Under the pieces are notes generated by a model that saw only the letters and a list, made by a program, of their open reading frames with translations, was not told the DNA's origin and did not search any database. Both the position numbers and the translations under genes were made by a program. Below, piece after piece: positions 8,541 to 53,633 of a stretch of DNA of 64,000 bases. Origin of the DNA: Puniceicoccaceae bacterium (lineage in GTDB: Bacteria; Verrucomicrobiota; Verrucomicrobiia; Opitutales; JAFGAQ01); the NCBI GenBank assembly GCA_028285755.1, contig JANQOQ010000008.1, positions 1,023,399 to 1,087,398 of the forward strand, in the 5' to 3' direction. The first letter of the stretch is position 1. Each line of letters starts with the position of its first letter.

Positions 8541-9104
8541 ATGGAAAACGCGCAATTTAACCAGAGGGATTGGTATGAGAAACATTTAAAACCGCATGAA
8601 CCTATGATAAGGTCGTGGCTCAAAGCTCGTTTTCAATTAGAGCACGAAATTGAGGATATTCTTCAAGAAGCTCTCTATAGAGTTTTGTATGCATCTTTGG
8701 ACGAAGAAATTAGGGCCCCTAAAGCGTATTTATTTACCACTGCTCGTAATGTTGCATTGATGCGATTACGGAAATCCAAGTTAAGAAATGAGATAAATTT
8801 AGAAGATTTTGCGTGCTCAAGCATCATAGACGATAGGAAGGGAACAGTCGATCAACTGTGTAATAACGAGAATATAAAAATATTGGATGACGCAATCAAG
8901 TCGCTACCTAGCAAGTGCAGGAAGATAATAGTTCTAAAAAAGGTCAAAGGGATGTCGATAAACTCAATTGCAAAACAACTCGGAATATCGCCCAATACCG
9001 TGCGTGTACAAGTAACTATTGGGCTAAAAAAAATCCGGGCATATTTTGAATTTATCCACGGTGATTCTACGCTACTGGAAAGAAAAAATGAGCATGGAGA
9101 ATGA
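8541..9104 (+). CDS. ECF-family RNA polymerase sigma factor
   Basis: 187-residue extracytoplasmic-function sigma factor. Region 2 is at about residues 22-85 (EDILQEALYRVLYA, then KAYLFTTARNVALMRLRKSK). Region 4 is at about 118-170, with the helix-turn-helix SINSIAKQLGISPNTVRVQV. Length and layout match FecI-type sigma factors. It overlaps the FecR gene, which is followed by an STN-TBDR, the classic cell-surface signalling order. It probably activates the TBDR promoter and perhaps enzyme genes. No clear Shine-Dalgarno precedes the ATG. The preceding 8348-8540 holds no gene I can recognise and probably contains its promoter. Confidence 0.92.
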   Translation: MENAQFNQRDWYEKHLKPHEPMIRSWLKARFQLEHEIEDILQEALYRVLYASLDEEIRAPKAYLFTTARNVALMRLRKSKLRNEINLEDFACSSIIDDRKGTVDQLCNNENIKILDDAIKSLPSKCRKIIVLKKVKGMSINSIAKQLGISPNTVRVQVTIGLKKIRAYFEFIHGDSTLLERKNEHGE

Positions 9105-10116
9105 TAACTTTGCCTCAGATTCAGCAGCAGATTGGGTTTTGCGAATTGAAGAGGGCTTAAGCGAAAACGAGCAAAAAGAATTTTTTGAGTGGTTACAAAA
9201 AGAACCCTCCCACATGGAGGAGTTCGATCAATTTCGTTTGATATGGAAAGATTTGGACACTTGGGCAGAGTTGCAAGACGGCTACGAACAGCATCAGGCC
9301 AAAAAGATTCGGTGGTCTACTAAACACACTTTGCAAATTGGATCACTTGCTGCTGCCTTAATTATGGGTGGATTCTTAATCAATCTATACGTTTCCCATA
9401 AACAAGGGGTCAACAAATCTGTCAGTGATTCGAATGTATACACGAGTGAGATGACCGTTAGTATATTGCCGGACGGTTCTACACTCTACACGAATATAAA
9501 TACTTCTTATAGTTACACTTTCTCTAGCCTCCAACGAAGAGTCAATCTGGCATCTGGTGAAATTTATGTAAGTGTGGCAGAGGACAAAAGCAGACCTTTT
9601 GTAATCGATGTAAACGGCATTGAGATAAGAGCCATAGGTACCGCATTTAATGTTAAATTCTTAGACAATTACATGGAACTTCTGGTTGAAGAAGGTACGG
9701 TTAATGTGAACATTCAGGAAGACTGTCCCTTTGAGGTTTGTTGTCTGGGGTTCGAAGAATCTGTGAATGAGGTCGTCTTCGCTAATCAAATGCTAACATT
9801 GCATTTATTTGATAATACTAGAGAAATTTTAAAACCAAAATCCTTAACAGGATTGGAGGTAAAAAAGCGATTTGCCTGGCATCACAGAAAGTTAGTTTTT
9901 AGAGCGGAACCCCTTAAAGATGTTATAGATGAATTTAATAGACTTAACGATGTTCAATTAGTTATTACTGATCCAAACATTGAGAATCTAAAAGTCAGTG
10001 GTTCCATAAAATCTGATAATTTGGAAGGCTTAACACGGTTGCTTGAACTCGGTTTTGATATCGCGTCCGAAGAAACACCTAATAGCCATATTTTACTTAC
10101 GCAAAAGGTAGATTAA
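9088..10116 (+). CDS. FecR-family anti-sigma factor
   Basis: Inner-membrane sigma regulator, 342 residues from the chosen ATG at 9088; the frame is open to an ATG at 9046. I prefer 9088 because GGAAAG lies just upstream and the sigma gene ends at 9104, giving a short overlap typical of sigma/anti-sigma pairs. The cytoplasmic N-terminal helical domain (DUF4880-like, ADWVLRIEEGLSENEQKEF) comes first. One TM segment follows at about residues 82-102, then the periplasmic FecR domain (about 115-210, with RPFVIDVNGIEIRAIGTAFNV). A C-terminal DUF4974-like domain (about 275-340) should contact the STN domain of the TBDR. It holds the sigma factor inactive, or activates it, depending on receptor status. 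Confidence 0.92.
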   Translation: MSMENDNFASDSAADWVLRIEEGLSENEQKEFFEWLQKEPSHMEEFDQFRLIWKDLDTWAELQDGYEQHQAKKIRWSTKHTLQIGSLAAALIMGGFLINLYVSHKQGVNKSVSDSNVYTSEMTVSILPDGSTLYTNINTSYSYTFSSLQRRVNLASGEIYVSVAEDKSRPFVIDVNGIEIRAIGTAFNVKFLDNYMELLVEEGTVNVNIQEDCPFEVCCLGFEESVNEVVFANQMLTLHLFDNTREILKPKSLTGLEVKKRFAWHHRKLVFRAEPLKDVIDEFNRLNDVQLVITDPNIENLKVSGSIKSDNLEGLTRLLELGFDIASEETPNSHILLTQKVD

Positions 10117-10232
10117 TACTCCGCTTGTTAAGTATTTTTTAATGCAAAGTTGTAAGTAGTGCATCTTATAAGGGATGCTGCTGCTAAATTACTCCGATTA
10201 CTTCCTTTACAACAACTATAGAAGATTAACTA

Positions 10233-13200
10233 ATGGCACGATATTTATCGAATGTCTTCACCAACTACTTTATAAGTTGTTGTCTTATTGGACACTTGGT
10301 TTTTGCCGAAATAGAAGAAAAGCGGGTGGTAGAAATACCATCAGGAGATGCTTCGAATTCACTGCTGATTCTTGCCGAAAGTTGGGATGTGGATATTTTG
10401 TATTCACATAACCATGTTGTGGGAGTTCAGACTCAATCAGTGAAGGGGTATTTTACACTCTACGAAGCCCTTGCGTTCATGCTGATAAACACCGGCTTGG
10501 AATATCTGCGAGACGAAAAAACAAATTCCTTAGTGGTAAGGCGAAAAAAACCTGCACTGCTTACTACTAGCAAAGTAGAGTTTCAAGAAACTGAAGAAGC
10601 AGCTACTCACAATATGGATCAAGAAAGTAAAGATACATTTTTTTCTAATCTGGGTAGAGGTTTAGTTTTGCTCCTGCTGTCAGGCAGAACATCTAGTGAG
10701 ACATCCGAAAAGGGGATAGACGAGGATATTTTTGAACTATCTCCATTTACAGTAAATACTTCGGGGGATGTTGGTTATCTCGCGATGAGTACTTTGGCAG
10801 GTACTCGCCTAAACACCAATTTGCGAGATGTAGGGGCTTCGGTAAGCGTCGTTACCCAAGAGTTGTTAGAAGATCTGCAATCTAACGAACTTCTCGATTT
10901 TCTTCAATATACTGCTGGCGCGGAAGTAGGTGGATTAGATGGCAATTTTGCAGGTAGCCATTTTAGTAACGGTCGTCCAGACAATGACGCTAATCGCGAA
11001 AACCCACAGCGTAACCAACGTGTAAGAGGAATTTGTTCTGCAACACTTACCCGTAACTATTTTCGTACTGATTATAGTGCAGATAGTTATAACATTGAAC
11101 GAATAACAATTAATCGTGGCCCGAACGCTCTACTCTTCGGTATAGGCAACCCTGCGGGCGTGATAGAGTCATCCACAAAACAAGCACATACCCGTAACGA
11201 TTCTAATGTATTGCGGTTTCGTTTTGGTAGCGAAAATACGCGTCGTGTAACTGTAGACGTAAATAAGATTATTTTACAAAACCGTTTAGCTGTCAGAGTT
11301 GCGGGTTTGAACGAAGAATCATACCTAAAGCAAAAACCTGCATTTGAATATGATAAACGTTTTTATGCTACGTTTGAGGCGTTATTACTAAAAAATGAAA
11401 ATTCTACTATACTTGATAAACTGACACTAAGAGGTTCAATAGAGAGAGTCAGTATTGAGGCCAATCCAGTTAATGTGATACCTCCGATCGACTCGTATAG
11501 TCTGTTTTTTGAGCCTCTAAACGCATCAATTCTTGATTTGCCTGGGATCAACATACGCGCTGCCCGGTACGATCCAAATGTGATATTGCCTAATGGGAGT
11601 AATGGTACTTGGGAATATAAAGTCAGTGTTAATAACCTGCAAAAGTCGAATACTATTCCTTCCAATATGAATGGGCTAACTGTAACTCCCTACTTTATTC
11701 AAATACCTTTGGTATACGAATCCTCTCAACAGCTGATTCCAGGCTACACCGGACAAGACGTCAACGGCATCATGGGTCGTATTCGTTACAGAACAAAGCG
11801 TAATGGAAGAGGCCAAGTGGATTATGCAGCTACAGCCAATGCATATACTGGTTTAGCAGGTTTTTCGTCTGTAACACTGCAGAATACAGATGTTTTAGAT
11901 TATGAAAGCAACTTAATATCAGGTGATTCAAATCGGGTTTTTCGTGATTTTCGGGCACAAAACTTAGTATTAGAACAACTTTTCTTTGCTGGAAATGTGG
12001 GTTTTGAAGCTGCATATGATCGTCAAATTTACGATACTGATCGCTTCTTCTTATTTAATTCTGGTCAAAACGGAGCTGAGAACGGTCAATCCGCTATCAA
12101 GATAGATACTGCAGAATTTCTAAATAATGATGACCCTAACCCCAATCATGGACGCCCATTTATTGTGCAGAGCATGCCAGATAACCAGATTAAAAAGAGT
12201 GAGCGTGAATCAATGAGGCTTACTGGTTTTGCGAGTCTTGATCTGGATGCATGGGGTGAAGAATATTTGGGTGGTATACCACTAGGAAAGCACACTATTA
12301 CCGGACTATGGGCTCGAGATACCCATGATATTACCATGTATGAATTTGGATTCGGCTGGAATAGTGAAGATCCAACTTTTCGCTCACGTTCTCAAATGTA
12401 CAAACTTGGAGGGTTTCGTAATCGCCCAATTATTTTTTCTTATCTAGGGCCTTCTGCATACACTGCATCAGTAGTAGGCAAAGACGATTTGCGTATTACT
12501 GATGTTTTTAGTAATCCGATTCCTCAAGCCGGTGAACGCTATACCGTTACTTTCTTTGATTGGACTAATCGTAAGCTTACTACAGAAGAAGCTTTTATTG
12601 AGCGGTTTCTGGATAATGGCGGAGCTAGCCGTCAGCGTATCACATCCCACTTGGTTAGTTGGCAGGGGAAATTCCTGAATGATCATTTAGTCGGCTTGAT
12701 TTCAGCACGCCATGATAACCTGAAAACATATTCCGACAAGGGTAATCAGACTGATGATGATGGCCGTTTTCTTCTGAATGAGGTTAATTTTAAGCTCATT
12801 CAAGCTGATCGCAATGCAAATGAATCACTCAATGAAGCAGGTGAAAATGTCGACAGCATTACGTGGAGCGTGGTCGCTCGTTTTCCAGAGAGTGTATTAT
12901 TTGAACTTCCCGCAAAATTGGATTTGAGCGCCTATTATAATGAGTCTGAAAATTTCAATCCGGAGGGATTGGCCCGGAATATATATGGCGTTTTGCTCCC
13001 ACCAACATCAGGTGAAACTATCGAATACGGATTTCTTGTGGAGTTATTTCAAAGGCGGGTATCAGTACGTCTCAACTGGTTCGAAACTAAGCAATTTAAT
13101 ATTCGTAATAATGCAGGAGGTGCAACTGGTGCAGTTTACAATTTTGCTGATGAGTTTTTGCTTAATCGCTATTTTGAAGCTCAGCGTAGTGGTATTGCAT

Positions 13201-14189
13201 TTAGCTCTATTATGGGGGTGGATGCTTCAGGAATCAGCACCTATGAAGAATTGTATAACATAGCGATGAATAAGCTTTTGCCTGCTGAAATAGTCGCTAA
13301 AAAAAGTTATAAGCTAACCGGAATCAAAGTGTTGGATTCTGATGGTTTTCAACAGTTTGATGCAGATGGTCGTCCTATAATAGACTATAGTTTGCAAACC
13401 AATCCACCACCAGGTTCATTGACTGATACGTCGATGCTTGAGGCCAGCGGCTTTGAAGCTGAAGTTGTTGGTAATATTACCGATTCCTGGAGAGTATACT
13501 TGAATGCCAGTCAACAGGAGACGATAATGAGCGATGCGGGTCTTGCTACAACTGAAGTCGCTCAGGAATTCTTTACAAACTTGGAGCAATTTAGCCTCCT
13601 GGGAATGAGTCAGGGACCAGCATTAACTGAGACCATGAATATCGCAGGTCGTTGGGCTCAGCAGGTCAGTACTCCCCTAAATGCTACAGTAGCCCGTAAT
13701 GGAGCGGTTAGTTTGGAGCAACGGGAGTGGCGAATCAACATGGTTACTAGTTATACATTGAACGATGAAGTTCCCAACTTACTAAGAGGATTAACGGTTG
13801 GTGGTGCTGTTCGATGGCAGTCTAAAATTGCTAATGGTAATCCTTTTTTAATGGGGGATCGTCTGAAAGAACATTTGGTCGATTTATACCCAGATATTTC
13901 CAGTGCAAGCGAGATACCAGACGATTCACCCTTATTGCAATTGCAAATACCTGACCTAGAGAATCCCTTTTTGGGTGATCCTGTAATGAATGGTGATTTG
14001 TTTGTAAGGTATCGTCGTAAACTGAATATTTTAGGAAGAAATGTGAATTGGAGTATTCAGTTTAATATACGCAATATCCTCAAAGACAAAAATCCAGCCA
14101 TTGTATCCACTAACCCAGATGGGCAAGTGGCGGTGATTCGTATTCCAAATGTAACCACTTGGTCAATTAACAATACTATTCGGTTTTAG
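10233..14189 (+). CDS. TonB-dependent receptor with N-terminal STN signalling domain
   Basis: 1318-residue outer-membrane receptor for transport plus transmembrane signalling. A signal peptide (residues 1-25, ending HLVFAE) is followed by an STN domain at about 28-107. A linker follows, and then an unusual second hydrophobic segment (residues 136-155, LGRGLVLLLLSG) that begins after an in-frame ATG at 10614 (residue 128) and looks like a second signal peptide. After it come IFELSPFTV (LSPF at 169-172), the plug (about 185-330, INRGPNALLFGIGNPAGVIE) and a barrel ending INNTIRF. It is third in the ECF/FecR/TBDR order, so it should signal to FecR at 9088. The N-terminal oddity suggests fusion of an STN gene to a complete receptor, or an internal start making an STN-less form. 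The substrate is unknown. Confidence 0.93.
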   Translation: MARYLSNVFTNYFISCCLIGHLVFAEIEEKRVVEIPSGDASNSLLILAESWDVDILYSHNHVVGVQTQSVKGYFTLYEALAFMLINTGLEYLRDEKTNSLVVRRKKPALLTTSKVEFQETEEAATHNMDQESKDTFFSNLGRGLVLLLLSGRTSSETSEKGIDEDIFELSPFTVNTSGDVGYLAMSTLAGTRLNTNLRDVGASVSVVTQELLEDLQSNELLDFLQYTAGAEVGGLDGNFAGSHFSNGRPDNDANRENPQRNQRVRGICSATLTRNYFRTDYSADSYNIERITINRGPNALLFGIGNPAGVIESSTKQAHTRNDSNVLRFRFGSENTRRVTVDVNKIILQNRLAVRVAGLNEESYLKQKPAFEYDKRFYATFEALLLKNENSTILDKLTLRGSIERVSIEANPVNVIPPIDSYSLFFEPLNASILDLPGINIRAARYDPNVILPNGSNGTWEYKVSVNNLQKSNTIPSNMNGLTVTPYFIQIPLVYESSQQLIPGYTGQDVNGIMGRIRYRTKRNGRGQVDYAATANAYTGLAGFSSVTLQNTDVLDYESNLISGDSNRVFRDFRAQNLVLEQLFFAGNVGFEAAYDRQIYDTDRFFLFNSGQNGAENGQSAIKIDTAEFLNNDDPNPNHGRPFIVQSMPDNQIKKSERESMRLTGFASLDLDAWGEEYLGGIPLGKHTITGLWARDTHDITMYEFGFGWNSEDPTFRSRSQMYKLGGFRNRPIIFSYLGPSAYTASVVGKDDLRITDVFSNPIPQAGERYTVTFFDWTNRKLTTEEAFIERFLDNGGASRQRITSHLVSWQGKFLNDHLVGLISARHDNLKTYSDKGNQTDDDGRFLLNEVNFKLIQADRNANESLNEAGENVDSITWSVVARFPESVLFELPAKLDLSAYYNESENFNPEGLARNIYGVLLPPTSGETIEYGFLVELFQRRVSVRLNWFETKQFNIRNNAGGATGAVYNFADEFLLNRYFEAQRSGIAFSSIMGVDASGISTYEELYNIAMNKLLPAEIVAKKSYKLTGIKVLDSDGFQQFDADGRPIIDYSLQTNPPPGSLTDTSMLEASGFEAEVVGNITDSWRVYLNASQQETIMSDAGLATTEVAQEFFTNLEQFSLLGMSQGPALTETMNIAGRWAQQVSTPLNATVARNGAVSLEQREWRINMVTSYTLNDEVPNLLRGLTVGGAVRWQSKIANGNPFLMGDRLKEHLVDLYPDISSASEIPDDSPLLQLQIPDLENPFLGDPVMNGDLFVRYRRKLNILGRNVNWSIQFNIRNILKDKNPAIVSTNPDGQVAVIRIPNVTTWSINNTIRF

Positions 14190-17980: not shown

Positions 17981-18093
17981 TCAGGATTGTAATTATGGCA
18001 TTTAATCCGAAAGCGCATGCTAAATAGTATAAATCACAGTATTGTTTCGTGAGACTACTAAAGTATTTTCATTATAACTATCTAGATGTTCGA

Positions 18094-18393
18094 ATGGCAA
18101 TAAGGTGGAGTCTGCTCCTGTTGGTTATGAGCTTTGGAGGTTGTAATGAAAAACAGCTTGTTAAGGTTGATATTCCTGAAGGCTTAGCAGCGGATACATT
18201 AATGATTTTCGCTGAGCAAACGAGTGTCGAAATTTTATTCGATCTTGATAGTGTTCAAGGGGTTAATACTAATTTAGTTCAGGGTGTATACTACTCTGGA
18301 GAAGCACTTGAATTAATGCTAATTGATACCCCGCTTAGGGTAGATTACGAAGTAGAAACGGGTGCGTATGCAGTTTTTCTGGAAGTTGAATGA
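18094..18393 (+). CDS. Stand-alone STN-domain lipoprotein
   Basis: 99-residue protein from the ATG at 18094 (an in-frame GTG at 18049 would add 15 residues). It consists of a short signal peptide with lipobox (SLLLLVMSFGGC, Cys17) followed by one STN (secretin/TonB short N-terminal) domain only: VKVDIPEGLAADTLMIFAEQ, then TSVEILFDLDSVQGVNTN, then ALELMLIDTPLRVDYE. It aligns by eye, end to end, with residues ~31-106 of the receptor at 18568 and stops exactly where that receptor's linker begins. STN domains normally sit at the N-terminus of signalling TBDRs or secretins and contact FecR. A free, membrane-anchored copy between FecR and TBDR is unusual. It may be an auxiliary sensor, a competitor, or the leftover of a split receptor. 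I am confident of the domain, less of the role. Confidence 0.75.
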   Translation: MAIRWSLLLLVMSFGGCNEKQLVKVDIPEGLAADTLMIFAEQTSVEILFDLDSVQGVNTNLVQGVYYSGEALELMLIDTPLRVDYEVETGAYAVFLEVE

Positions 18394-18567: not shown

Positions 18568-21500
18568 ATGGGTTTACTCTTATTCACTTTTCGACGTAGG
18601 CAATTCGCAGCGCAATTATTGTTTATCATGACCATTACTGTGCAAGTTGCCGCTCAATCACTTGTATTTAATATAAAATCAGGTGAAGCAAGAACCACGC
18701 TATTTGAGTTTGCTAGGCAAGCGCAACTAAGTGTGGTAATGGATCGTAGTGATATAGAGGGCGTTCAAACAAACGAAGTATCAGGATTATTAGTACCACG
18801 TGATGCATTAATGCAGATGTTGGAGGGTACGAACCTTGTTTTCAAAGAGGATTTGGAAACAGGGGCGATTGCTGTAACGAGGTCGGTTGAAACCGAAACC
18901 GTGAATGTAACCCTAAATTCTAAAACCCAAAAGAATAATACTGATATGAATCAAAAAGAATTAAACGCGCCGAAAAATATGGTTTCTCGGTTCTTAACTG
19001 GCTTGACGGCTCTATTGATAATAGGCAATGCCGCTAATACGAATGCTCAGGATGAGGAAGATGATGTTTTCTTGCTTTCGCCCTTTGTGGTGGAAACAAG
19101 TGATGAAGTCGGCTATGCCGCTACCAATACATTGGCAGGAACACGCGTTAACACCAGTCTGGATGACTTGGCAAACTCGATCACCGTTGCTACCAGAGAA
19201 TTAATCAATGACTTGGGGGTCGATGATGCGACCACACTTTTACCCTTCTTAGGTAATATTGAAACATCGGGTATCGGTGGTTCTTTTGGGGGCGGCAGTC
19301 TAAGCCGTGAATCACGCTATGTGTGGATTAACCGAAACCCTTCGGATAATAATCGTATTCGTGGTCTCGCCAGTGCCGATAATACCCGAAGTTACATGCC
19401 TACAGGCACTGTTTTCGACTCATATAACATTGAGCGTGTTACGGTAAATCGGGGTCCGAATTCTACTCTTTTTGGACTCGGCTCGCCAGGGGGTATTATA
19501 GACCATACGATTATACAACCCTACATGGTCAACTCCAATAGATTTGAATTTACAGTGGGTTCGTTTGGATTATTCCGGGCTAACTTTGATGTTCAAAGAA
19601 CATTTTTGGATGATAAGTTAGGTATTCGGGTTGCCGGACTGAGTGAGGAAACTGAATTTCGCCAGAGTTATACCTATCTGGAAGACGAAAGAATTACCTT
19701 TGCGTTAAAATATAAGCCCTTTAGTAATGCGAATCTAAAGATTACGTTTGAGAATGGTGGAATGGACGCAAATCGTCCGCGGCCTAACGCACCACGTGAT
19801 GTAATCAGCCGGTGGTTCACGCCTCAGTTTAATAAACTGACTCATGATCCTTCTACGGTAAGTTTCAGTACTGTGAACCGTGATTTTTATCGTGCTCCCG
19901 GAGAGTGGTTCTTCCAACCTGCCATGATCTATGAAACCAACAATGGAGCTAATCCATCACGATTAAACCAAGCATGGGAAAATATTAGAATTGGTCCAGG
20001 TTCATCTGGGGATCTTTTCCAGGCATTTACTTTGAGTATTACGAAGGGTGATCAATGGTTCCCAACTGCAAGTGCCAATACACCCGATGGCAGCTTCTAT
20101 GGCACGGAAGAGTTGTTTGACCGCAGTGCATTTGACTGGGTGGAGAATCTTCTGGATGGTCCCAATAAGCGTGAATGGGAGAATTTTGACATTCTTAATA
20201 TCTCATACGACCAAACTTGGCAGTTTGACTTGGGTTCAGCGGGTTTCGAAGTTTCTCATGCAGACGAAAACCTAGACCGTAGTTGGTATGACATGCTAGA
20301 CGGAGGCCGAGGTTATACCATCAATATTGATCTCAATACTCACTTGAATTGGGGCGATGTAAATCCCAACTTTGGACGTCCGTTCGTCGCAGGTCCAAAC
20401 CGGCGCCAGCAAATTGATTTTGTGCGTGAGGTTCAGCGTGCAACTGCTTTCTACGATGTGGATTTCAAAAATAAGGATGGCAAGATCATGAAGTGGTTTG
20501 GTCGTCATGTGGGTACCTTCTTTGGGCAGAGATATACTTTAACGAATAGCTCAATCAATGGACGCAATCACGTTGACTCAGATTACCTATTCAACGCCAC
20601 ACTGAACCCGGATACAGGTGCTGGCTCTACAAGTTTCACTTCAGGTTCCGCACAGGTACGAAGTGTCGTATATATTGGACCCAGTGTTGCAGATCGCAAT
20701 AGCATTGCAGGTGCGAATATACAGGGTATACGAGGACCTCTCAATTATACTCCCACAACAGGAAGATACTTTGACGAGGTAACGGATACCTGGGTGGACT
20801 CGCCTGTTACACCAACAGATATCCGAAATGATTCAAGCTTCCCAAGCACAATATATAGCCAGGGGTTGTCTCGCCAAATCACGGATTCTTATGCCTATAT
20901 TCATCAGGCTTACTTGTTTGACCAGGAATGGCTGGTGGGTACTTACGGTTATCGTAAGGATAGCGTAGAAACTTATTCTTCAACCTTTGAGCGTGATTCA
21001 AATAGAATGGTAATCCTTGATTCCCGCAGGTTGAATGATGAGCCTAATGATGCAGAGTTTGAGGCAATTACCCGTAATTTTGGCTTGGTGGCACATATTT
21101 CGGATCTTATTACTCTACCTATGGATTTAGGTTTGTCCCTGCACTGGGGTGAAGGAGAAAACTTCCAAATATCCAATCCACGACAGGATTTATTTGGGAA
21201 TGGTATTGCGCCTCCCGGAGGAAGCACCGAGGACTATGGTTTCACAGTGACTGCTCCCGACAACAAGTGGAGTGTACGTGTTAACTTTTACGAATCTTCC
21301 AGTGAACGCGCTGGCTTTGGTATACCCGGTTTCCTGATTGAAACGGATCGCCGTATAATCGCATACAATAGTCCTGAAGCACTGGCTGCAGCAGGTTACC
21401 AAGGGCCTCCACAGTTTTATCGTGATTTGACGCAATGGACTGTAGTAGAAGATCCGGGAACGGTAAGTGGCTTTAGTGTAGAGCAGGATTTTCCATCTGT

Positions 21501-25283: not shown

Positions 25284-26858
25284 ATGAAAATGAAATGTAT
25301 TATAGCACTAACAATATCTCTAATCAGCGAAAGTCTATTAGCTGATGATAGACCCAATATACTGCTTATAATGAGTGACGATTTGGGTTACTCGGATATT
25401 GGGAGTTACGGGGGAGAGATAAATACGCCAAACCTGGATGCACTTGCCGAAAACGGCATTCGTTTAACCCAATTTAAAACGACTGGTAGATGTTGCCCAA
25501 GTCGTGCATCACTAATGACGGGTCGCTACGCTCATGCGGTAGGTATGGGATGGATGACCGCTGTAGACGAAAATCGCCCCGGCTATCGCGGGCAGGTATA
25601 TAGTGATGTTCCCTTTATATCTGAGATACTCAAAGAAAGCGGTTATAAGACTTATTTTTCAGGTAAGTGGCATTTGACTGTGGATGGTGCCATTAAATCA
25701 GCTGACAAAGGTTATCTTCCAAATGGTTCTTGGCCCTTTCAACGAGGCTTTGATGAATCATTCGGCATACTTACCGGAGGTAATGACTATTACAATACCA
25801 CTTTTATGTTCAGAAACCAAGAATCTGTCAGCCGGGACTCACTAGCTGAAGATTGGTATCTGACTCATGGAATAAACAATGCTTCAGTGGATTATATAAA
25901 ATCTCACGATTTTAACGACGCTCCCTTGTTTCTATACCTAGCCCATTTTGCACCTCACCGTCCACTACAGGCACCGGAGAGTCGTATTGAAAAGTATATG
26001 GAGCAATACAGAGTTGGTTACGATGTATTGCGAGTCTCTCGCTTCGAGAAAATGAAAGAACTGGGCATTGTAAGTGATAATGCTACCTTACCCGATCTTG
26101 AAGCAGAATATTTGGAGAAACGCCCGGATTGGGAAAGCTTAACATCGGAACAACAAGATCAATGGATTCGCGAAATGGCAACGTATGCAGCCATGGTCGA
26201 AATCATGGACGATGGAATAGGTGATGTGATCAATGCATTAAAGGAAAAAAATGCTTTAGAAAATACACTTGTCATTTTTATCAGCGATAATGGAGCCACC
26301 GAGGAAGGCGGTTTGATATCAAAACTGGCAGCTGATCTCAGCAATACCCCCTACCGTAGTTATAAAAGATATAATTACGGGGGAGGTATTAGTAGTCCTG
26401 CAATTCTTTCATGGCCTGCCAAACTAGGAGAATTTGCGAATGAGTTGAGGGCGGATGTAACTCATATCATCGATATAGTTCCCACATTGGTTGATGTGAC
26501 ATGGATCAATACCGATACTTCTTTCGACGGTGTCAGTATATTTGAGGTTATGCTCGGTTATCAATTACCTGAAAGGCACGTGTTTTTTGAGCATGAAGGC
26601 AATGCGGCGGTTATCTATGACGATTGGAAATTAGTTAGCAAAGGTTTTCCGATTGATTGGGAGCTTTATAATATAAAACGCGACCCATTTGAGCAAAAGA
26701 ACTTAGAAACATTCCTGCCTGCTCAGGTTTATGATCTACACGTTGAGTGGGTGAAATGGGCGGAGAAGAACCATGTGCTTCCATTGGAAACTGCAGGATG
26801 GAGCGATCGTATCAAACATTACAAGACTTTGTATCCTGAACAAAGCGGACCTCAATAA
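25284..26858 (+). CDS. Secreted S1-family sulfatase (CCPSR type)
   Basis: 524-residue type I sulfatase with signal peptide (about 1-20). It hydrolyses sulfate esters on a carbohydrate after Cys70 in the motif C-C-P-S-R is converted to formylglycine. Metal-site residues are visible in SDDLGYSD (31-38) and in the SDNGA loop (FISDNGATEEGG, about 332-343). KWHLT (about 132) is the usual catalytic Lys/His segment. An insertion around 250-290 (RFEKMKELGIVSDNATLPD) is shared with the sulfatases at 33295 and 56656, marking one arylsulfatase-like subfamily. It heads a rightward cluster with a GH-D enzyme, a GH28-like protein and a fucosidase. The target linkage cannot be assigned. Confidence 0.93.
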   Translation: MKMKCIIALTISLISESLLADDRPNILLIMSDDLGYSDIGSYGGEINTPNLDALAENGIRLTQFKTTGRCCPSRASLMTGRYAHAVGMGWMTAVDENRPGYRGQVYSDVPFISEILKESGYKTYFSGKWHLTVDGAIKSADKGYLPNGSWPFQRGFDESFGILTGGNDYYNTTFMFRNQESVSRDSLAEDWYLTHGINNASVDYIKSHDFNDAPLFLYLAHFAPHRPLQAPESRIEKYMEQYRVGYDVLRVSRFEKMKELGIVSDNATLPDLEAEYLEKRPDWESLTSEQQDQWIREMATYAAMVEIMDDGIGDVINALKEKNALENTLVIFISDNGATEEGGLISKLAADLSNTPYRSYKRYNYGGGISSPAILSWPAKLGEFANELRADVTHIIDIVPTLVDVTWINTDTSFDGVSIFEVMLGYQLPERHVFFEHEGNAAVIYDDWKLVSKGFPIDWELYNIKRDPFEQKNLETFLPAQVYDLHVEWVKWAEKNHVLPLETAGWSDRIKHYKTLYPEQSGPQ

Positions 26859-33068: not shown

Positions 33069-33294
33069 TCAAACTCATAGAAAATGTATTGCCAGAATAT
33101 TGCCGTAATGCGTGCTCAATTATGCCTATTATTGCATTTGAGAGTATAATGAGATTGACTTAGATAAAGGGATTGGCTTGTTTCTGCGGCTTAAGAATGT
33201 GCATATAGAAATTTCGAGTCCCTCTCTGAGCACCATATTTTAAGCAGTTTCTGCGTTGAGTAGGTGTTTGATATCTGTTTAATTGCTGGCTGAA

Positions 33295-34977
33295 ATGAGC
33301 AGCTCTCAATGGTATTGGCGTTTATTATCTTCCTTATTTGGATTAATTGCAGCTGTCCTTTTAACCAGAAGTAATCTTAATGATCAGTATTCAGAAATTA
33401 GCGCAACCAGTCCCGAACAAGTAGAGAAAGGATTGCGACCCAATATTATACTCATCCTCGTGGATGATATGGGTTACTCGGACCTAAGCTGCCTAGGCAG
33501 TGAAATTGCTACGCCTAATATTGATAAGCTTGCAAGCGGGGGTCTGTTGATGACGCAATTTTATAATGCAGCCCGATGCTGTCCGACCCGAGCTTCTCTC
33601 CTTACAGGCCTTTACCCCCACCAGGCGGGTATGGGGCATCAGAATAAGGATTTTGGGATTCCCAGCTACTCAGGTAGGATTAATAATAATGCTGTGACGA
33701 TTGCTCAGGTCTTAAAATCGGCCGGTTACAGGACCTACCAAGTGGGTAAATGGCATGTGGGCAATACGGAAGCCTATTGGCCTGCTGCCAAGGGGTTTGA
33801 CCAATACCTGACACTGATTGATGGTGCGATGAGCTACTTCAACCTGGATGGCTGGACCCGGGGACAGCAAAGTATGAAAATGCTTCTGAATGGAGAAGAC
33901 TATTCGGCAGATGATGATTTCTTTGCGACGGATACATTTACAAACAAAGCGGTGGAATTTATCACGGAGCATGATGAAGAACAACCCTACTTCATGTACC
34001 TTGCATACAATGCGCCTCATTGGCCACTGCACATTCGGCCTGAAGACCGCGAGTTATACAGAGGGCATTACGACCCAGGGTGGGATAAAACCCGGGAGCT
34101 CCGCTTAAAGCGAATGAGGGAATTGGGAGTGATAGACTCTTCCGCTTCTTTGACACCCCGTTTCGGTGAGATTCCTGCCTGGGATAGTTTATCTGAAACT
34201 GAAAAATCGGAATGGGCAGAAAAAATGGAACTCTATGCAGCCGTTATGCATAGGCTGGACCTGGGTATTGGTAGAGTGATCCAAGCCCTTGACCGTGAGA
34301 ATCAAATCGAGAATACCTTGATACTCTTTTTGACTGATAACGGGGCTTGTCATGAAGACCCGATAGGACCCTGGATTACTTACCCGCTGGATGGAGAACC
34401 CGGAGGCGCAGAATCCTTTCCTGCATATGAACTTCCCTGGGCCAACGTGAGCAACACCCCTTATTCCTGGTTTAAATCTTATCTGCATGAGGGTGGTATT
34501 CGGACTCCGTTAATTGCTCACTATCCGGCAGCAATTCCGGCTGGCAGTACCGATTATACGACCAAAGGGCATATTATTGATATAATGCCCACCTTGCTCG
34601 AACTTGCTTTTGCAGACTATCCCGAGTGCCACGATGGAAATCGCATTACTCCCATGGAAGGGGCATCCTTAGTCCCTGCTTTTTTAGGCAAGCAACACAC
34701 TATTAATCAACGGGTGTTGTTCTGGGAGCATGAGTTCAACCGGGCGGTGCGTGATGGTAACTGGAAGCTTGTATCCGCCTGGAAAACCCCCGAGGGGAAA
34801 CCGATCAATCGATGGGAACTTTATGACTTATTAAAGGACCCCACAGAGCTGAATGACCTTTCCAGCCAATTTCCTGAAAGGGTGAAGCGAATGGCTAAAA
34901 AATACGCGTCTTGGGCTGAAAAAGTGGGAGCCTATGAAAAAGGCAAACTGCAAGAATTGAGAAAAAGTAACCCGTAA
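33295..34977 (+). CDS. S1-family sulfatase (CCPTR type), membrane-anchored or secreted
   Basis: Type I sulfatase, 560 residues from the ATG at 33295 (a TTG at 33283 would add four). A hydrophobic segment near the N-terminus (LLSSLFGLIAAVLL) acts as signal peptide or anchor. The formylglycine Cys is the first Cys in C-C-P-T-R (residue 95 from this start). LVDDMGYSDLSCLG, GKWHVGN and TDNGACHE show the metal and catalytic segments. It belongs to the same arylsulfatase-like subfamily as 25284 and 56656 (MRELGVIDSSASLTPR insertion). Its TAA overlaps the ATG of the GH78-like gene (TAATG), so the two are translationally coupled and probably act on one substrate: desulfation, then rhamnose release. 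Confidence 0.92.
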   Translation: MSSSQWYWRLLSSLFGLIAAVLLTRSNLNDQYSEISATSPEQVEKGLRPNIILILVDDMGYSDLSCLGSEIATPNIDKLASGGLLMTQFYNAARCCPTRASLLTGLYPHQAGMGHQNKDFGIPSYSGRINNNAVTIAQVLKSAGYRTYQVGKWHVGNTEAYWPAAKGFDQYLTLIDGAMSYFNLDGWTRGQQSMKMLLNGEDYSADDDFFATDTFTNKAVEFITEHDEEQPYFMYLAYNAPHWPLHIRPEDRELYRGHYDPGWDKTRELRLKRMRELGVIDSSASLTPRFGEIPAWDSLSETEKSEWAEKMELYAAVMHRLDLGIGRVIQALDRENQIENTLILFLTDNGACHEDPIGPWITYPLDGEPGGAESFPAYELPWANVSNTPYSWFKSYLHEGGIRTPLIAHYPAAIPAGSTDYTTKGHIIDIMPTLLELAFADYPECHDGNRITPMEGASLVPAFLGKQHTINQRVLFWEHEFNRAVRDGNWKLVSAWKTPEGKPINRWELYDLLKDPTELNDLSSQFPERVKRMAKKYASWAEKVGAYEKGKLQELRKSNP

Positions 34978-45625: not shown

Positions 45626-47035
45626 TTATTTCTTGAATTGGTTTTTGAGCTTGGCTTTTAGCTTATTGACCAATTCAGGATTATTCTCTGCAAGATTCAC
45701 AGTTTCCCCTTCGGGCGAATCATGGTCATAGAGCTCTGCCTGACCGTCTGGGTGGGTGATCAGGCGATAACGATCCGTACGGAGGGTATATCGATCCCCC
45801 CGGAAGTAACCGACTACGGGATCCCCACTAAGTCGTGGGTCTTTCAGGATGGGCGTTAAAGATTTACCCTGAGTGAATTCGGGTGTGGCAATACCTGCAA
45901 GTTCGGTAAGCGTGGGGAAAATGTCGATACTTTCGGCAAGAGCGTTTGTGCTTTTGCCCTTCTGGGAAAGCTCAGGGTACGCAATGATGAGCGGGGATCG
46001 CAAAGATTCTTCAAACAGGGCGTGCTTGCCCCAGATGGCGTGCTCACCGAGGTGCCAGCCATGATCTCCCCACAGCACTATGATGGTATTTTCGCGAAGG
46101 TTCAGGCTGTCGAGCTTATGAAGGACATCGCCAATTAATGAATCCGCATAGGTAACGCTGGCGGCATAGTATTTGCGAACTTCATGAGCGAACGCTTGAT
46201 CACTCCGCGGATCCTTATCCCAGCGATTGTAGTGAAAGAACTCCCCTGATTCGTGCCAGGTGCTCAGACCTTCGGGCTTTTCGGGATGTGGGGTGGGGGG
46301 CAGCTCTACATCGTTGTAGTACTCGAGGTATTTTGTGGGAGCACCAAAAGGTAGGTGAGGCCTTATAATGCCCACTGCGAGGAAGAAGGGCTGGTTGTCT
46401 TGGGCGAGTATTTCCAGTTGATTAAGCGCTTCTTTAGTAATTAATCCGTCTGGGTAGATCGTATCAGGCCCTTGGACGTCCTGATAGACATCCATTTCGG
46501 ATCGCACCACCCGGATCTCACCATGCGCGAGACCGTGCATCGCGCCGCGTGGGTGCTGCCAGGCACCGCTCGGCATGAGGGTACGATCCCAGGAATGCGG
46601 CATTTCGAGGATGGAAATATCGTCCCAGTCATCCCCGCCGAGGCCTCCCGGGTGATGAGAAACTTTGCCTACGGATACCGTTGTATAGCCGTGTTGCCGG
46701 AACCATGCCGGCATACTGGGAGTTACACTCTGAGGATTCTCTGCCAATAGCTCAGCCCTTTTGAAAATAGCCCTATTATCTGCCGGTCCATAGTTGCCGG
46801 TGAGTAAGGCGTATCGTGAAGCTCCGCAGGTAGGCGCTTGTACATAATGGCGGTGAAATGCGCGACCCTGATCCGCAAGGCTGTCAATATGGGGAGAGTG
46901 AATATAATCGACCCCGAAGGACCTTAACTCAGGCCTTAAATCATCCACACAGATGAGCAATACATTAGGTTTGGCGATCGCATTTGGAGCAAGGCAGCAT
47001 ATCGAAAGGGTTAGGCAGTAAAGCAGATTTCTCAT
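45626..47035 (-). CDS. Secreted S1-family sulfatase (CGASR type, iduronate-2-sulfatase-like)
   Basis: 469-residue type I sulfatase (signal peptide about 1-21). The formylglycine Cys is Cys70 in C-G-A-S-R, the Ala-containing variant. The N-terminal [12 protein letters not shown] and [20 protein letters not shown] read like iduronate-2-sulfatase-type enzymes. Metal-site residues include [17 protein letters not shown] (about 321-337). Substrates of this group are usually 2-sulfated uronates or related sugars, but marine homologues act on other glycans. It is divergent from the DUF5060 glycosidase (47177), with which it may share control. Confidence 0.9.
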
Positions 47036-48776: not shown

Positions 48777-50168
48777 TTAGCGCGAGATAGGATCAGCATC
48801 GTATGCTGCCTGGGCTTTATTGAGCCTTTGTAATAAGGCGTCCACGATGTCTGGATACTGGTCTGCAAGGTTATTTTGCTCACTAATATCTTCAGATAAA
48901 TTGTATAACATCGGAGCATCACTGTCCGATTTCACAAAATGGGGTTGATTTGGCAAAACCAGTTTCCATTTGCCTTCGCGCATAGCGGTGATTTCGCTTT
49001 TGCCAAAATAGAGAGCACGTTCTGGAAGGGATTCACCAGAAAACAAGCGCCCGGAAATATCAACGCCATCATACTCTCTATGTTGAGGAATTGATATCCC
49101 TGCAGCTTTCAGATATGTCGGAAAGATATCAGAAACAATGATTGGATCGGTAACAATTTGACCAGCTTCTATGTTTTCTGGCCAGTAAGCGATCCCTGGT
49201 ACGCGCACGCCGCCTTCGTAGGTGGATTGCTTGCCCCCACGTAATGGAGCATTGGTTCCAAATGTCAGGTCTGGGAACATTGCTTGTGCCTTTTCCTCAT
49301 CTTGATATGCTGCCCGGGTGACTGCTCCGTTATCTGAGGTGAAAAAAATAAGCGTATTCTCCTCAAGACTAAACGCACGTAGCGTACGTAGAATGTTACC
49401 TACACTCCAGTCGAGTTCCTGCACGGAGTCTCCAAAAAGGCCGTTTTTGGAGGTGCCCACAAAGTCTGGTGAAGCACCAATGATCGTATGGGGCATGGCG
49501 TGAGAGAGGAACAGAAAGAAGGGCTTATGGTGGTTTTCGGCGATGAACTGGACTGCTGCAGCATTGTATTGCTGTTCCAGGAGATTTACGTCGATGGGTG
49601 CTTCGACGATTTCATTACCCCGCATCATGGGCATGGGTGGCCATATTTCCTTGCGCCAGACGGTCTGGGGGTGATTCGGTCCCATATCATTCGGGTAAGG
49701 CATGCCGTAAAACAGATCAAAGCCGTGGTTGAGCGGTAAATACTTCGGTTCGCTGTGGCCCAGGTGCCATTTGCCAATCAGTGCCGTGGTGTAGCCTTTT
49801 TTCTTAAGCAGCTCGGGCAGAGTGTTTTCAGTTTCGGGTAAACCGCCTGGGGTGGTAGGCCAAAGCAAGGTTGTAAAGCCGACTCTTACGGGATGTCGCC
49901 CTGTCAATAGTGCTACCCGGGTGGGTGTGCACACGGGTGATGTTACGTAAAAATCTGTGAAGCGGATGCCCTCGTCCGCCATACGATCAAGATTGGGCGT
50001 ATGGTGGACTTCACTTCCGTAGCAGCTTAGATCCCCGTAGCCGAGATCATCGGCCATGATGACTATAAGATTGGGCGGACGATTCGTAGTATCTTCAGCA
50101 TGAACCGCACAGTGCAATCCACAAATAATGCCAAAGATCAGGTACCGAAACCGACACTTTTTTCTCAT
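48777..50168 (-). CDS. Secreted S1-family sulfatase (CTPTR type)
   Basis: 463-residue type I sulfatase (signal peptide about 7-24). The formylglycine Cys is Cys80 in C-T-P-T-R. MADDLGYGDLSCYG and GKWHLGH (about 145), with FFTSDNGA (about 280), show the metal and catalytic segments. Lengths and motifs resemble the galactose/GalNAc-6-sulfatase and arylsulfatase A-like group, which is tentative. It is the last gene of the leftward operon SGNH-PQQ dehydrogenase-three sulfatases, 7 bp after the preceding gene. Confidence 0.92.
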   Translation of the reverse strand: MRKKCRFRYLIFGIICGLHCAVHAEDTTNRPPNLIVIMADDLGYGDLSCYGSEVHHTPNLDRMADEGIRFTDFYVTSPVCTPTRVALLTGRHPVRVGFTTLLWPTTPGGLPETENTLPELLKKKGYTTALIGKWHLGHSEPKYLPLNHGFDLFYGMPYPNDMGPNHPQTVWRKEIWPPMPMMRGNEIVEAPIDVNLLEQQYNAAAVQFIAENHHKPFFLFLSHAMPHTIIGASPDFVGTSKNGLFGDSVQELDWSVGNILRTLRAFSLEENTLIFFTSDNGAVTRAAYQDEEKAQAMFPDLTFGTNAPLRGGKQSTYEGGVRVPGIAYWPENIEAGQIVTDPIIVSDIFPTYLKAAGISIPQHREYDGVDISGRLFSGESLPERALYFGKSEITAMREGKWKLVLPNQPHFVKSDSDAPMLYNLSEDISEQNNLADQYPDIVDALLQRLNKAQAAYDADPISR

Positions 50169-50175
50169 AGGGCAA

Positions 50176-52071
50176 TTATCTGTAATTTCGCTCGATAGGT
50201 TCTCCGCAGTTGACCATGACCTGATCGAGTGCCATACCGATAAACATTTGATAATACCAGTTGCGGAAACCGTCCCACACTGGTCCTTCGATTCGCTTCA
50301 GGTGTTTTCTGACTTTCGGTATCATAGGTTTAGCCGCTTCACCCGCTTCTGCCAGTGCGCGGGCGGCACGCATAGCAATCGCAGGCTCCGTGTCAATATG
50401 ATCTGCAATCGCCTGATTAATAATCTCAAGCGCTGGCATATGGTCGGGCTTCAATACTAAAGCGGCTTCTGCGGCGGGGATGCGGACGTTGACGTTGCGG
50501 TCGTTCATCAGCTTTTTAAGGAGTTCACGATGAGCAGCCGTCTGCTGTGGGTCATTAAGCAGACCAACAGCAGCCCAATAGCGTACGCCTACCTCGGGTG
50601 AATTGCTGAGCTTTTGCAGATCAGTCACACTGGTTGAGGGCATGCTGATCAAATCTGCAGCCTCAAGTATCGTAGGTAGATCGTATCTTAGGGGATCCTG
50701 CGCCATATCGTAGACGGAATCGTGAATGCCGCGTCGCATCATTTCCCCTTCCGGGAGAAATGCAGTGTCACGTGTTTCCAGTATCCAATCATAGAGCACA
50801 TCTTTGAGATTTTTTTTGATATCCGCATATTCAGGATCGTCTACCAGGTTATTGAGTTGATCTGGATCGTTTTGGAGATCGTAGAGTTCCTCAACAGCTT
50901 TGCGGGTGAACATAGCCACGTTGTGGGGGTTGGGGTTCGCTGATTCCAGATCTGCATACATATCCTGCAGGATGATTTTGCGTGTATCTCTAAAAATCAT
51001 TGCCTCACGTATATAGGGGCGAAACGGCATGAAATTGCGAATGTACATGTAACGGTCGTCGCGGACTGCGCGGGAGAGATCTTCCAGATCATCCGCACGA
51101 TCACGGGCGCCAAACAGATAGGGCTGCCCTTTAGGATTTTGAGATGCGACCGGACCGAGGAATGAGTGGCCTTCCATGTTATCCGGTATGGTAATGCCTG
51201 CCAGATCGAGAACAGTGCTCGCATAGTCTACAAAGCCTACGAGCCGATCATCCACGGAGCCCATTGCAAACTCCGGGGTGAGGTGGCTGAATTTCTCGGG
51301 TATATGAACCAGCAGCGGGACTTTCAAACCCGTTTCGTAGAGCCAGCGTTTATAGCGCGGGAAACCCGAGCCGTGATCAGAGAAAAAGAAAATAATCGTA
51401 TCATCAAGGAGCCCTTCATTTTCGAGGTCAGCAAGCTGTTCGGCAAAGAAATTATCGAGGTTTTGGATTAAATCGTAGTGTCTTGCCATGATTTTGCGGA
51501 AATTGGGGGTATCCACAAAATAGGGAGGAAGGGTGACATCTGCCGGATCATGGCGAACAGGATCTACATGAAAACGCCCGGTGGGGCCTTCGTGCGTCTG
51601 CTGATAGTTGACGACGTGAAAAAACGGTTGGTCGGGATTAGGTCGGTTTTTCCAATGCGCGGTAGTACTGCTCTCATCCCACAATCCCCGAAAGCTGAAG
51701 TTATAGTCGGTCTTGTGGTTGTTGGTTGTGTAATAGCCGGCTTCACGCATGAGCACCGGGAGGGTTTTCACTTGGGGAGATTGCGGAACAATACCGCGCA
51801 AATTCATCGTGCCCAGGGAAGTAGAGTAACGGCCGGTGATTAGTGTAGATCGTGCGGGAGCACAGATTGGGCTGGTGGACCATGCATTGGTGAAGCGGAT
51901 CGCTTCCTTGGCAAATGCATCGATATTCGGGGTATTCGCGTGGGGGTCGCCGTAGCATCCAAGGTAGGGGCTCATGTCCTCACATGAGATCCAGACAATA
52001 TTTGGCCTTTCCTGAGAGGCCCAGGCGATGGTTGTTATGAGAAAAACTGACAAGAGTATTAGAGTTTTCAT
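50176..52071 (-). CDS. Secreted sulfatase (CAPAR type) with C-terminal HEAT-like repeats
   Basis: 631-residue exported sulfatase (signal peptide about 1-19). The activation motif is C-A-P-A-R (Cys70), with Ala in place of the usual Ser/Thr, as in N-sulfoglucosamine sulfohydrolase-like enzymes (CEDMSPYLGCYGDPHANTPN and ICAPARSTLITGRYSTSLG support this group). The sulfatase fold ends around residue 500. The tail (about 505-625) has HEAT-like helical repeats (LLNDPQQTAAHRELLKKLM, VNVRIPAAEAALVLK, RAARALAEAGEAAKPMI). The tail may bind partners or substrate. It is the middle sulfatase of the three-sulfatase operon, 6 bp from its upstream neighbour. Confidence 0.9.
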   Translation of the reverse strand: MKTLILLSVFLITTIAWASQERPNIVWISCEDMSPYLGCYGDPHANTPNIDAFAKEAIRFTNAWSTSPICAPARSTLITGRYSTSLGTMNLRGIVPQSPQVKTLPVLMREAGYYTTNNHKTDYNFSFRGLWDESSTTAHWKNRPNPDQPFFHVVNYQQTHEGPTGRFHVDPVRHDPADVTLPPYFVDTPNFRKIMARHYDLIQNLDNFFAEQLADLENEGLLDDTIIFFFSDHGSGFPRYKRWLYETGLKVPLLVHIPEKFSHLTPEFAMGSVDDRLVGFVDYASTVLDLAGITIPDNMEGHSFLGPVASQNPKGQPYLFGARDRADDLEDLSRAVRDDRYMYIRNFMPFRPYIREAMIFRDTRKIILQDMYADLESANPNPHNVAMFTRKAVEELYDLQNDPDQLNNLVDDPEYADIKKNLKDVLYDWILETRDTAFLPEGEMMRRGIHDSVYDMAQDPLRYDLPTILEAADLISMPSTSVTDLQKLSNSPEVGVRYWAAVGLLNDPQQTAAHRELLKKLMNDRNVNVRIPAAEAALVLKPDHMPALEIINQAIADHIDTEPAIAMRAARALAEAGEAAKPMIPKVRKHLKRIEGPVWDGFRNWYYQMFIGMALDQVMVNCGEPIERNYR

Positions 52072-52077
52072 AAAGCT

Positions 52078-53619
52078 TTATCGTCTCCCAGGTACAAACG
52101 TGTCTACTTCGGGAACCTTGTATTTTTTGCGCAATTGCATGAGCTGCTTTTTTAGACCATCCTGGATATCCATATATTCTATGTTCCCATAAACGGATTC
52201 CATTTCATCGGGATCATTTACCAAATCGTAAAGCTCCCAGTCATCGATCGGTCTACCCTCGAGTTGGTAAAAATGGATGAGCTTGTAACGACCATTGGTG
52301 ACCCCGTAGTGACGGGCCACATTATGTGATCCGGGATTTTCGTAGTAGTGGTAATAAAAGTGGGTTCTCCAGTTTTTAGGAGTTTTACCATGTAGGAGTG
52401 GTACAAGACTGCCACCTTGCATGTCATCAGGCTGGGATGCCCCTGCGATGTCGAGAAAGGTTTGGGCAAAGTCCAGATTTGAAACGATATCGCCATTGAC
52501 GCTGCCGGGTGCAACTACTCCTGGCCACCGTATCAATAAAGGCGTGACGAGAGATTCCTCATACATCCAGCGTTTGTCATACATTCCGTGTTCACCGAGA
52601 TACCAGCCCTGATCCGATGAGTAGATGACGACGGTATTGTCTGCAAGGCCGCTTTCATCGAGATAATCCAGGAGTGCCTTTACATTATCATCCACACTGC
52701 GTACACAACGCAGGTAATCCTTTACATAACGCTGGTAGCGCCAGCGTACGATTTCCTCATAGCTCATGTCTGCCATGGAGCGGAAAAAGTCCGCGTTTTC
52801 ATCTCTGTAAGCGGCTTCAAAGACCCGCCATTGCTCATCATTCATGTTCTCGCGGTGTCCGAATTTTAAGTGCCGGTCCGTAAATGTTCTCGCTATGGAC
52901 ATGTCATTGGCTGCGGATGCTTGAGTTCTCCCGGAGAAATCATCGAAGAGTGTCGGGGGCTCCCATATTTCCACATCATCGAGCCAGTTAACGTATTTAA
53001 GAGATGGAAGCCATTGCCCATGGGGTGCTTTGTGTTGAGTCATGAGCATGAATGGCTTGGATGGATCTCGTTCAGATTTTATCCATTCGATCGTTTTTTC
53101 ACCGATGATATCGGTGGTATAGCCGGTGTGGGGAATTTTGGTGGGTTGCCCATCGTCACCCCGGGTGATCATGGGCGGGTTATAGTAAGGACCCTGTCCG
53201 TCCAGAATATCGTAATGGTCAAATCCGGTCGGCGTGGAGCGCAGGTGCCACTTGCCGATAATTGCGGTTTCGTAGCCTTCTTTCTGCAAGAGTTTGGGGA
53301 AGGTTTGCTGGGCGCCATTAAAGACATGCGCATTCGTCAAATTGCCGTTTAAGTGGCTATATTTGCCCGTGAGGATAACGGCGCGACTGGGATTGCAAAT
53401 GGAGTTGGTAACATAGCAACGGTCGAAGCGGATACCCTCATCCGCCAACCGGTCAATGGCCGGGGTTTGCATGCGGGTATCGTTGTAAGCACTGAGTGCC
53501 TGAGACCCATGGTCATCTGTAAAGATGAATATGATATTGGGTCGTTCGCGCTTAGCCAATAAATTGAATGCTCCCGTTAGGCAGAGTAGTATAAGCGTTT
53601 GAATGATAGTGGATTTCAT
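52078..53619 (-). CDS. Secreted S1-family sulfatase (CNPSR type)
   Basis: Sulfatase of 513 residues from the ATG at 53619; six more residues are open to 53637, but the later start gives the better signal peptide (MKSTIIQTLILLCLTGAF) and clears the PQQ gene by 14 bp. The formylglycine Cys is Cys75 (numbered from here) in C-N-P-S-R. FTDDHGSQALSAYND, HLRSTPTGFDHYDILDGQG and SSDQGWYLGEHG fit the GlcNAc-6-sulfatase-like group, whose C-termini also end in an amphipathic helix followed by KKYKVPE. The substrate in this organism is not known. Confidence 0.92.
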   Translation of the reverse strand: MKSTIIQTLILLCLTGAFNLLAKRERPNIIFIFTDDHGSQALSAYNDTRMQTPAIDRLADEGIRFDRCYVTNSICNPSRAVILTGKYSHLNGNLTNAHVFNGAQQTFPKLLQKEGYETAIIGKWHLRSTPTGFDHYDILDGQGPYYNPPMITRGDDGQPTKIPHTGYTTDIIGEKTIEWIKSERDPSKPFMLMTQHKAPHGQWLPSLKYVNWLDDVEIWEPPTLFDDFSGRTQASAANDMSIARTFTDRHLKFGHRENMNDEQWRVFEAAYRDENADFFRSMADMSYEEIVRWRYQRYVKDYLRCVRSVDDNVKALLDYLDESGLADNTVVIYSSDQGWYLGEHGMYDKRWMYEESLVTPLLIRWPGVVAPGSVNGDIVSNLDFAQTFLDIAGASQPDDMQGGSLVPLLHGKTPKNWRTHFYYHYYENPGSHNVARHYGVTNGRYKLIHFYQLEGRPIDDWELYDLVNDPDEMESVYGNIEYMDIQDGLKKQLMQLRKKYKVPEVDTFVPGRR

Positions 53620-53633
53620 GGCTGTTTTTAGAA

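Follow-up and report, generated by a model that had tools for sequence, protein, structure and literature searches.

The window, that is, the whole stretch of 64,000 nucleotides analysed, contains a cassette of four adjoining genes encoding an ECF sigma factor, a FecR anti-sigma factor, a short protein consisting of an STN domain, and an STN-TonB-dependent receptor (TBDR), all on the same strand (Table 1). By Pfam and gene order, the ECF gene adjoins that of a FecR-type anti-sigma factor; a receptor with an N-terminal STN is present at the locus; and the periplasmic part of FecR carries a C-terminal STN-like subdomain, its predicted fold matching 6ovk_R and 4m0h. These are features of FecI/FecR/FecA-type systems. 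A preliminary description of this DNA had reported a genuine stand-alone STN lipoprotein of 99 residues between FecR and receptor, and its open reading frame, frame and position were as described. An alternative in-frame GTG start at 18049 would give a protein of 114 aa. Two STN domains are available to the one FecR, as had also been proposed, the receptor keeping its own beside the lipoprotein. Loci with the lipoprotein gene between FecR and receptor are referred to as type A, and those with an STN gene upstream of the ECF gene as type B.

A comparison cassette in the same window has no STN lipoprotein, and its FecR falls outside the type A FecR clade. Eight sulfatases lie around the cassettes and suggest a locus for the use of sulfated polysaccharides; the ligand of the window receptor may be a sulfated glycan. 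Two small adjoining ORFs appeared toxin-antitoxin-like by eye, and no Pfam match was found for either.

Table 1. Genes and features in the window, with positions counted from its first nucleotide
Feature	Position	Strand	Remarks
Comparison cassette without STN lipoprotein	8541..14189 (ECF 8541..9104, FecR 9046..10116, STN-TBDR 10233..14189)	+	
Two small adjoining ORFs, 96 and 86 aa	14300-14854		
ECF sigma factor, 180 aa	16392..16934	+	Pfam Sigma70_r2 and r4_2; type A ECF clade, support 99
FecR anti-sigma factor, 349 aa	16931..17980	+	Pfam FecR, weak FecR_C
Stand-alone STN lipoprotein gene	18094..18393	+	99 aa from ATG
Lipobox Cys17 of STN lipoprotein	18142..18144	+	
STN fold of lipoprotein	about 18163..18381	+	
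STN-TonB-dependent receptor, 1206 aa	18568..22188	+	Pfam Plug 9e-7, STN only 0.099
Receptor's own STN	about 18658..18882	+	Family profile; Pfam STN alone weak
Internal Met at codon 127, with a second signal-peptide-like segment	18946..19050	+	Window receptor, between STN and plug
Sulfatases	25284-26858, 33283-34977, 45626-47035, 48777-50168, 50176-52071, 52078-53637, 56656-58287, 62071-63633		Pfam

The STN-only protein

The window's STN-only protein taken alone gave no match to Pfam STN, because its sequence is divergent; family profiles recover the domain, and 17 of 21 members of the STN-only family match Pfam STN (best 3e-9). A profile built from stand-alone members only matched the signalling domains of PupA (1e-10), FpvA (1.5e-9) and PupB (5e-5), and also those of HasR, FemA, FecA and FoxA, with no secretins among its matches. 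The AlphaFold2 model, built on an alignment that also included receptor STNs, had a pLDDT of 91.4, and the best PDB matches of the predicted fold in Foldseek were the PupB NTSD (TM 0.88, target-normalised) and the FpvA signalling domain. The STN-only protein thus has both the sequence profile and the beta-alpha-beta fold of a TonB-receptor signalling domain, which upholds the STN assignment of the preliminary description. Identity as a secretin N0 domain was rejected, since secretin N0 folds ranked far lower in Foldseek and none appeared in the profile search. The protein extends no more than a few residues beyond the STN fold and, unlike VreA, has no TolA/TonB-like C-terminal domain.

Whether read from ATG or GTG, the leader consists of a basic n-region and a hydrophobic stretch, followed by FGG-C. 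A Cys follows the hydrophobic leader in all 26 type A proteins, preceded by G, A or S in 25 and by C in one. By the lipobox criterion, the STN-only product is a predicted bacterial lipoprotein. The Cys lies about seven residues before the first strand of the STN, so the domain would sit close to its membrane. In E. coli, the residue at +2 sorts lipoproteins between the two membranes. The residue after the Cys is Asp in only one of the 26; if the E. coli rule also held in this phylum, the other 25 would be sorted to the outer membrane and so be remote from the anchor of FecR.

The window lipoprotein shares 36% identity with the STN of the adjoining receptor and 53% with its closest stand-alone relative. 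These values, and the separate lineage of the lipoprotein family, led us to reject a truncated copy of the adjoining receptor.

Recurrence and inheritance of the cassette

By search, the source genome (4.25 Mb) has 46 STN sites, seven ECF-FecR-STNlipo-STN-TBDR loci, and one locus with a short STN ORF upstream of the ECF gene. A wider search for ECF/FecR/STN-only/TBDR gene orders, as the preliminary description had proposed, returned at least 26 type A loci in nine genomes of one order. There are seven each in the source genome and G004, four in G367, two each in G064 and G414, and one each in G002, G031, Puniceicoccaceae bacterium K14 and Pelagicoccus sp. SDUM812005; one of these loci, L064, is truncated by the end of its contig. 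The relatives are named as Opitutales, Opitutaceae, Pelagicoccus and Puniceicoccaceae, and in a sample of 388 genomes of the phylum, matches below E 1e-15 were confined to the same order. Gene order is fixed and spacing tight in the 26 type A loci, and every type A receptor whose N-terminus was seen retains its own STN.

A chance arrangement was rejected, as the order recurs seven times in the source genome and in eight other genomes. All 26 type A copies are intact, so that a pseudogene was also rejected, and the frame decay in relatives that would have spoken against the gene was not found. Recurrence in at least 26 loci of related genomes argues for a dedicated extra part rather than debris. 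As types A, B and C show, STN domains are often rearranged here, and this could leave behind a functionless duplicated or truncated receptor N-terminus; yet the frames stay open and keep a lipobox-type Cys in 26 of 26 cases despite divergence, with a conserved gene order and a lineage of their own, and such a leftover is very improbable.

In the source genome, the seven type A FecRs form one clade (support 95), and the ECF tree places the same seven loci together (99). A tree of 75 FecRs put all 26 type A sequences in one clade of 32 (99). This clade also holds L074, L052 and L067, which have a receptor and lack the lipoprotein gene; L079, where no downstream receptor was found; and L071 and L081, which reach contig ends. 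The lipoprotein is thus dispensable at L052, L067 and L074. No convincing STN relic was detected between FecR and receptor at L074, L086 or L082 (best E 0.06).

The preliminary description had suggested that the lipoprotein might be the unfused ancestor of the neighbouring STN-TBDR. The trees of STN domains, which rest on only 74 columns, do not bear this out: constraining the type A lipoproteins to one clade made the tree no worse than the unconstrained one (AU p 0.61), and this clade is a lineage parallel to that of the receptor STNs. Mean identity of a lipoprotein to its neighbour's STN was 35.2%, compared with 34.5% to the STNs of other type A receptors. Being no closer to the neighbour's STN, the gene is not a recent copy of its neighbour and is not its unfused half either. 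A real split arrangement exists elsewhere, at locus L096 (G447:C3; 4495-4899, 2081-4417), in the order ECF-FecR-STN-only-TBDR; the TBDR there has no STN, and the STN-only protein has a signal peptide and no lipobox.

Type B comprises six loci (L012, L050, L051, L062, L095 and L097), two of them, L095 and L097, without a convincing lipobox. Their six FecRs lie in another clade, of seven (95), and two of the type B lipoproteins branch together with the receptor STNs of their type (97/92). Treating all stand-alone STNs, A and B, as one clade was borderline (AU p 0.0503). From these results we read, with moderate confidence, one origin for type A and a separate one for type B.

Distances between type A lipoproteins (24 loci) correlated with those of the FecR C-terminus (0.70), the ECF (0.69), the receptor STN (0.47) and the FecR N-terminus (0.37), but not with those of the barrel (-0.07). 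Judged by the value for the ECF, most of the correlation between lipoprotein and FecR is plain co-inheritance. Given the ECF, the partial correlation was 0.41 for the FecR C-terminus and -0.02 for the FecR N-terminus, a hint that the lipoprotein may change specifically together with the periplasmic FecR domain, though correlation does not prove contact. FecR as the lipoprotein's partner, assumed in the preliminary description, thereby gains indirect support.

The correlation with the receptor STN drops to 0.13 given the FecR C-terminus. This counts against a relay or activator, in which the lipoprotein would convey the signal of the outer-membrane receptor to FecR, perhaps through pairing with the receptor STN, and would be needed for induction. 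Mutual pairing of STN domains is on record (PMC11637429), the +2 residues suggest a place in the outer membrane beside the receptor, and the retained receptor STNs would provide a partner. The published free signalling domain inhibits, however (PMC11637429), and a relay seems rather unlikely.

Over 54 loci, receptor STN distances followed those of FecR (r 0.56, p 0.0005), while the receptor STN showed no such relation to its own barrel (r -0.03), nor FecR to the barrel (0.07). The seven type A plug/barrels of the source genome are scattered among those of other receptors (7 changes for 7 rows). The barrel of the window receptor is sister to that of L028, a locus from another regulatory clade (100); the two share 54% in the barrel, 36% in the STN and 28% in FecR. 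Since barrels are uncorrelated with FecR or with their own STNs, they have been exchanged while the regulatory modules before them were conserved, the swap junction by these comparisons being between STN and plug. This swapping suggests that what is inherited together with the regulator is the signalling domain rather than the transporter. Both STNs track ECF and FecR while barrels do not, so the lipoprotein gene looks like a fourth, dedicated part of a cell-surface-signalling cassette of the FecI/FecR type rather than an unfused ancestor.

Across the 35 ECF-FecR-TBDR loci of the source genome, the plug/barrel phylogeny is unlinked from the phylogenies of ECF, FecR and STN; example pairs are the window cassette with L028, L009 with L036, and L018 with L014.

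A candidate second start within the receptors

Nearly all fused receptors examined (about 50, L009-L070) share, between STN and plug, a polar linker, a Met, a basic/polar stretch, a hydrophobic stretch and, in most cases, A-x-A-Q, a series resembling a second signal peptide. The Met is present at the STN-plug site in 51 of 53 receptors, against a chance expectation of about 40%. Over the eight codons preceding it, 89% of Lys, Gln and Glu codons end in A, compared with 50% in the barrel (p 6e-21), and this peak fades on both sides. Relative to synonymous resampling, the sequence upstream of the Met was lower in G (2.96 vs 4.45 per 24 nt, p 2e-9) and less structured (-2.4 vs -4.0 kcal/mol, p 3e-7). 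The codon choice indicates selection for low G and weak structure before the internal Met; at control Mets in the barrel, the signal was absent. Shine-Dalgarno sequences were not enriched at the internal Met, and the starts of the receptor, ECF and STN genes hardly show one either.

The start of the split L096 receptor aligns with the internal Met site and has the same kind of leader. Together with the codon signals, this suggests that the internal Met is probably a translation start, used now or until recently. The same ORF would then yield an STN-less receptor from the internal start, and such a start fits barrels moving as whole genes.

A possible STN-less receptor also bears on an adaptor or stabiliser, a protein that would keep an unstable FecR folded whichever receptor is present and have no regulatory role of its own. 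Frequent exchange of barrels that are unlinked from FecR (r about 0) would agree with this, as would the instability of the PupR CCSSD without the NTSD (PMC7186176). However, the receptors still have an STN that follows FecR, and most other FecR clades manage without an extra STN gene. We consider the adaptor clearly unlikely.

Possible role of the lipoprotein and relation to known systems

The AlphaFold model of the window FecR had a pLDDT of 87.8, and its Foldseek matches were 4m0h and 6ovk_R (E 3e-16 and 2e-15). The periplasmic part, about residues 112-349, is thus predicted to resemble the PupR CCSSD. Column scanning singled out two positions, which are to be read as leads and not as tests. 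FecR W315 is present in 26/26 type A proteins, 0/37 plain and 0/6 type B, and lies at the end of the predicted strand corresponding to the FoxR contact strand. At residue 46, which lies in strand 2, 84% of the lipoproteins carry Glu and 84% of the type A receptor STNs carry Ser; PupB contact residues 69-74 map to about lipoprotein residues 41-46, within one residue. Used as a pattern, the FecR motif around W315, (F/I)WSDN(V/I/L)xGF, retrieved mostly members of the type A clade from the genome collection.

The PupB NTSD binds the PupR CCSSD at 0.69 uM and stabilises it (PMC7186176). In P. aeruginosa, the FoxA signalling domain has been proposed to be cut loose, to bind FoxR without ligand and to protect it from proteolysis, and overproduction of free signalling domains prevents both signalling and proteolysis of the anti-sigma factor (PMC11637429). 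In light of this behaviour, the STN-only gene is most simply read as encoding a guard of FecR. The lipoprotein STN would dock on the C-terminal STN-like domain of its cognate FecR, as the PupB NTSD does on PupR, and would shield FecR from the proteolysis that frees the sigma factor. The ligand-bound receptor's own STN would compete with the lipoprotein or relieve it, and a separate STN would remove the need to cleave the receptor's STN loose for it to reach FecR. We hold with middling confidence that the lipoprotein acts as such a ligand-independent guard, maintaining the off-state or setting a threshold. The sequence leaves competitor and relay, both raised in the preliminary description, undecided, and the work on the free FoxA domain favours a guard or competitor. 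The main difficulty for the guard model is the outer-membrane placement given by the +2 rule. A fuller reading is possible and more doubtful: a four-part module in which a lipid-tethered STN constitutively guards FecR. Together with ECF, FecR and the receptor STN, this lipoprotein would form a regulatory unit, downstream of which complete receptor genes with their own start and signal peptide would be swapped and could be translated with or without the STN.

One question in cell-surface signalling is whether a receptor's signalling domain has to be free to act on the anti-sigma factor, and whether its effect is inhibition or activation. A natural gene making only the signalling domain, lipid-anchored and beside an otherwise normal system, offers a handle on that question. 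More than 8000 STN proteins in SMART all have the STN N-terminal to other domains (PMC7186176). In the open-access literature, a search for stand-alone STN lipoproteins yielded no account of one, nor did we find apt work on STN in Verrucomicrobia or on internal signal peptides in TonB-dependent receptors.

The cassette shares with FecA-FecR-FecI, PupB-PupR and FpvA-FpvR an ECF sigma factor, a FecR with a PupR-like periplasmic part and an STN-receptor in adjoining genes. It differs from them in its fourth, STN lipoprotein gene, its swapped barrels and the apparent second signal peptide inside its receptors. For an STN that acts in free form on an anti-sigma factor of the FecR type, the free FoxA signalling domain is a parallel, the likeness in action being a proposal; that domain is proposed to arise by receptor proteolysis (PMC11637429), whereas here the STN has a separate, conserved gene. 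The closest precedent for a barrel-less STN protein is VreA of the P. aeruginosa PUMA3 system (vreA-vreI-vreR), likewise encoded with an ECF sigma factor and a FecR-type regulator (PMC2729926). VreA, however, is for the most part a soluble periplasmic protein that carries an additional, TolA/TonB-like domain and replaces the receptor (PMC2729926), whereas the protein described here has the STN only and a lipid anchor, and is encoded next to a full STN-receptor.
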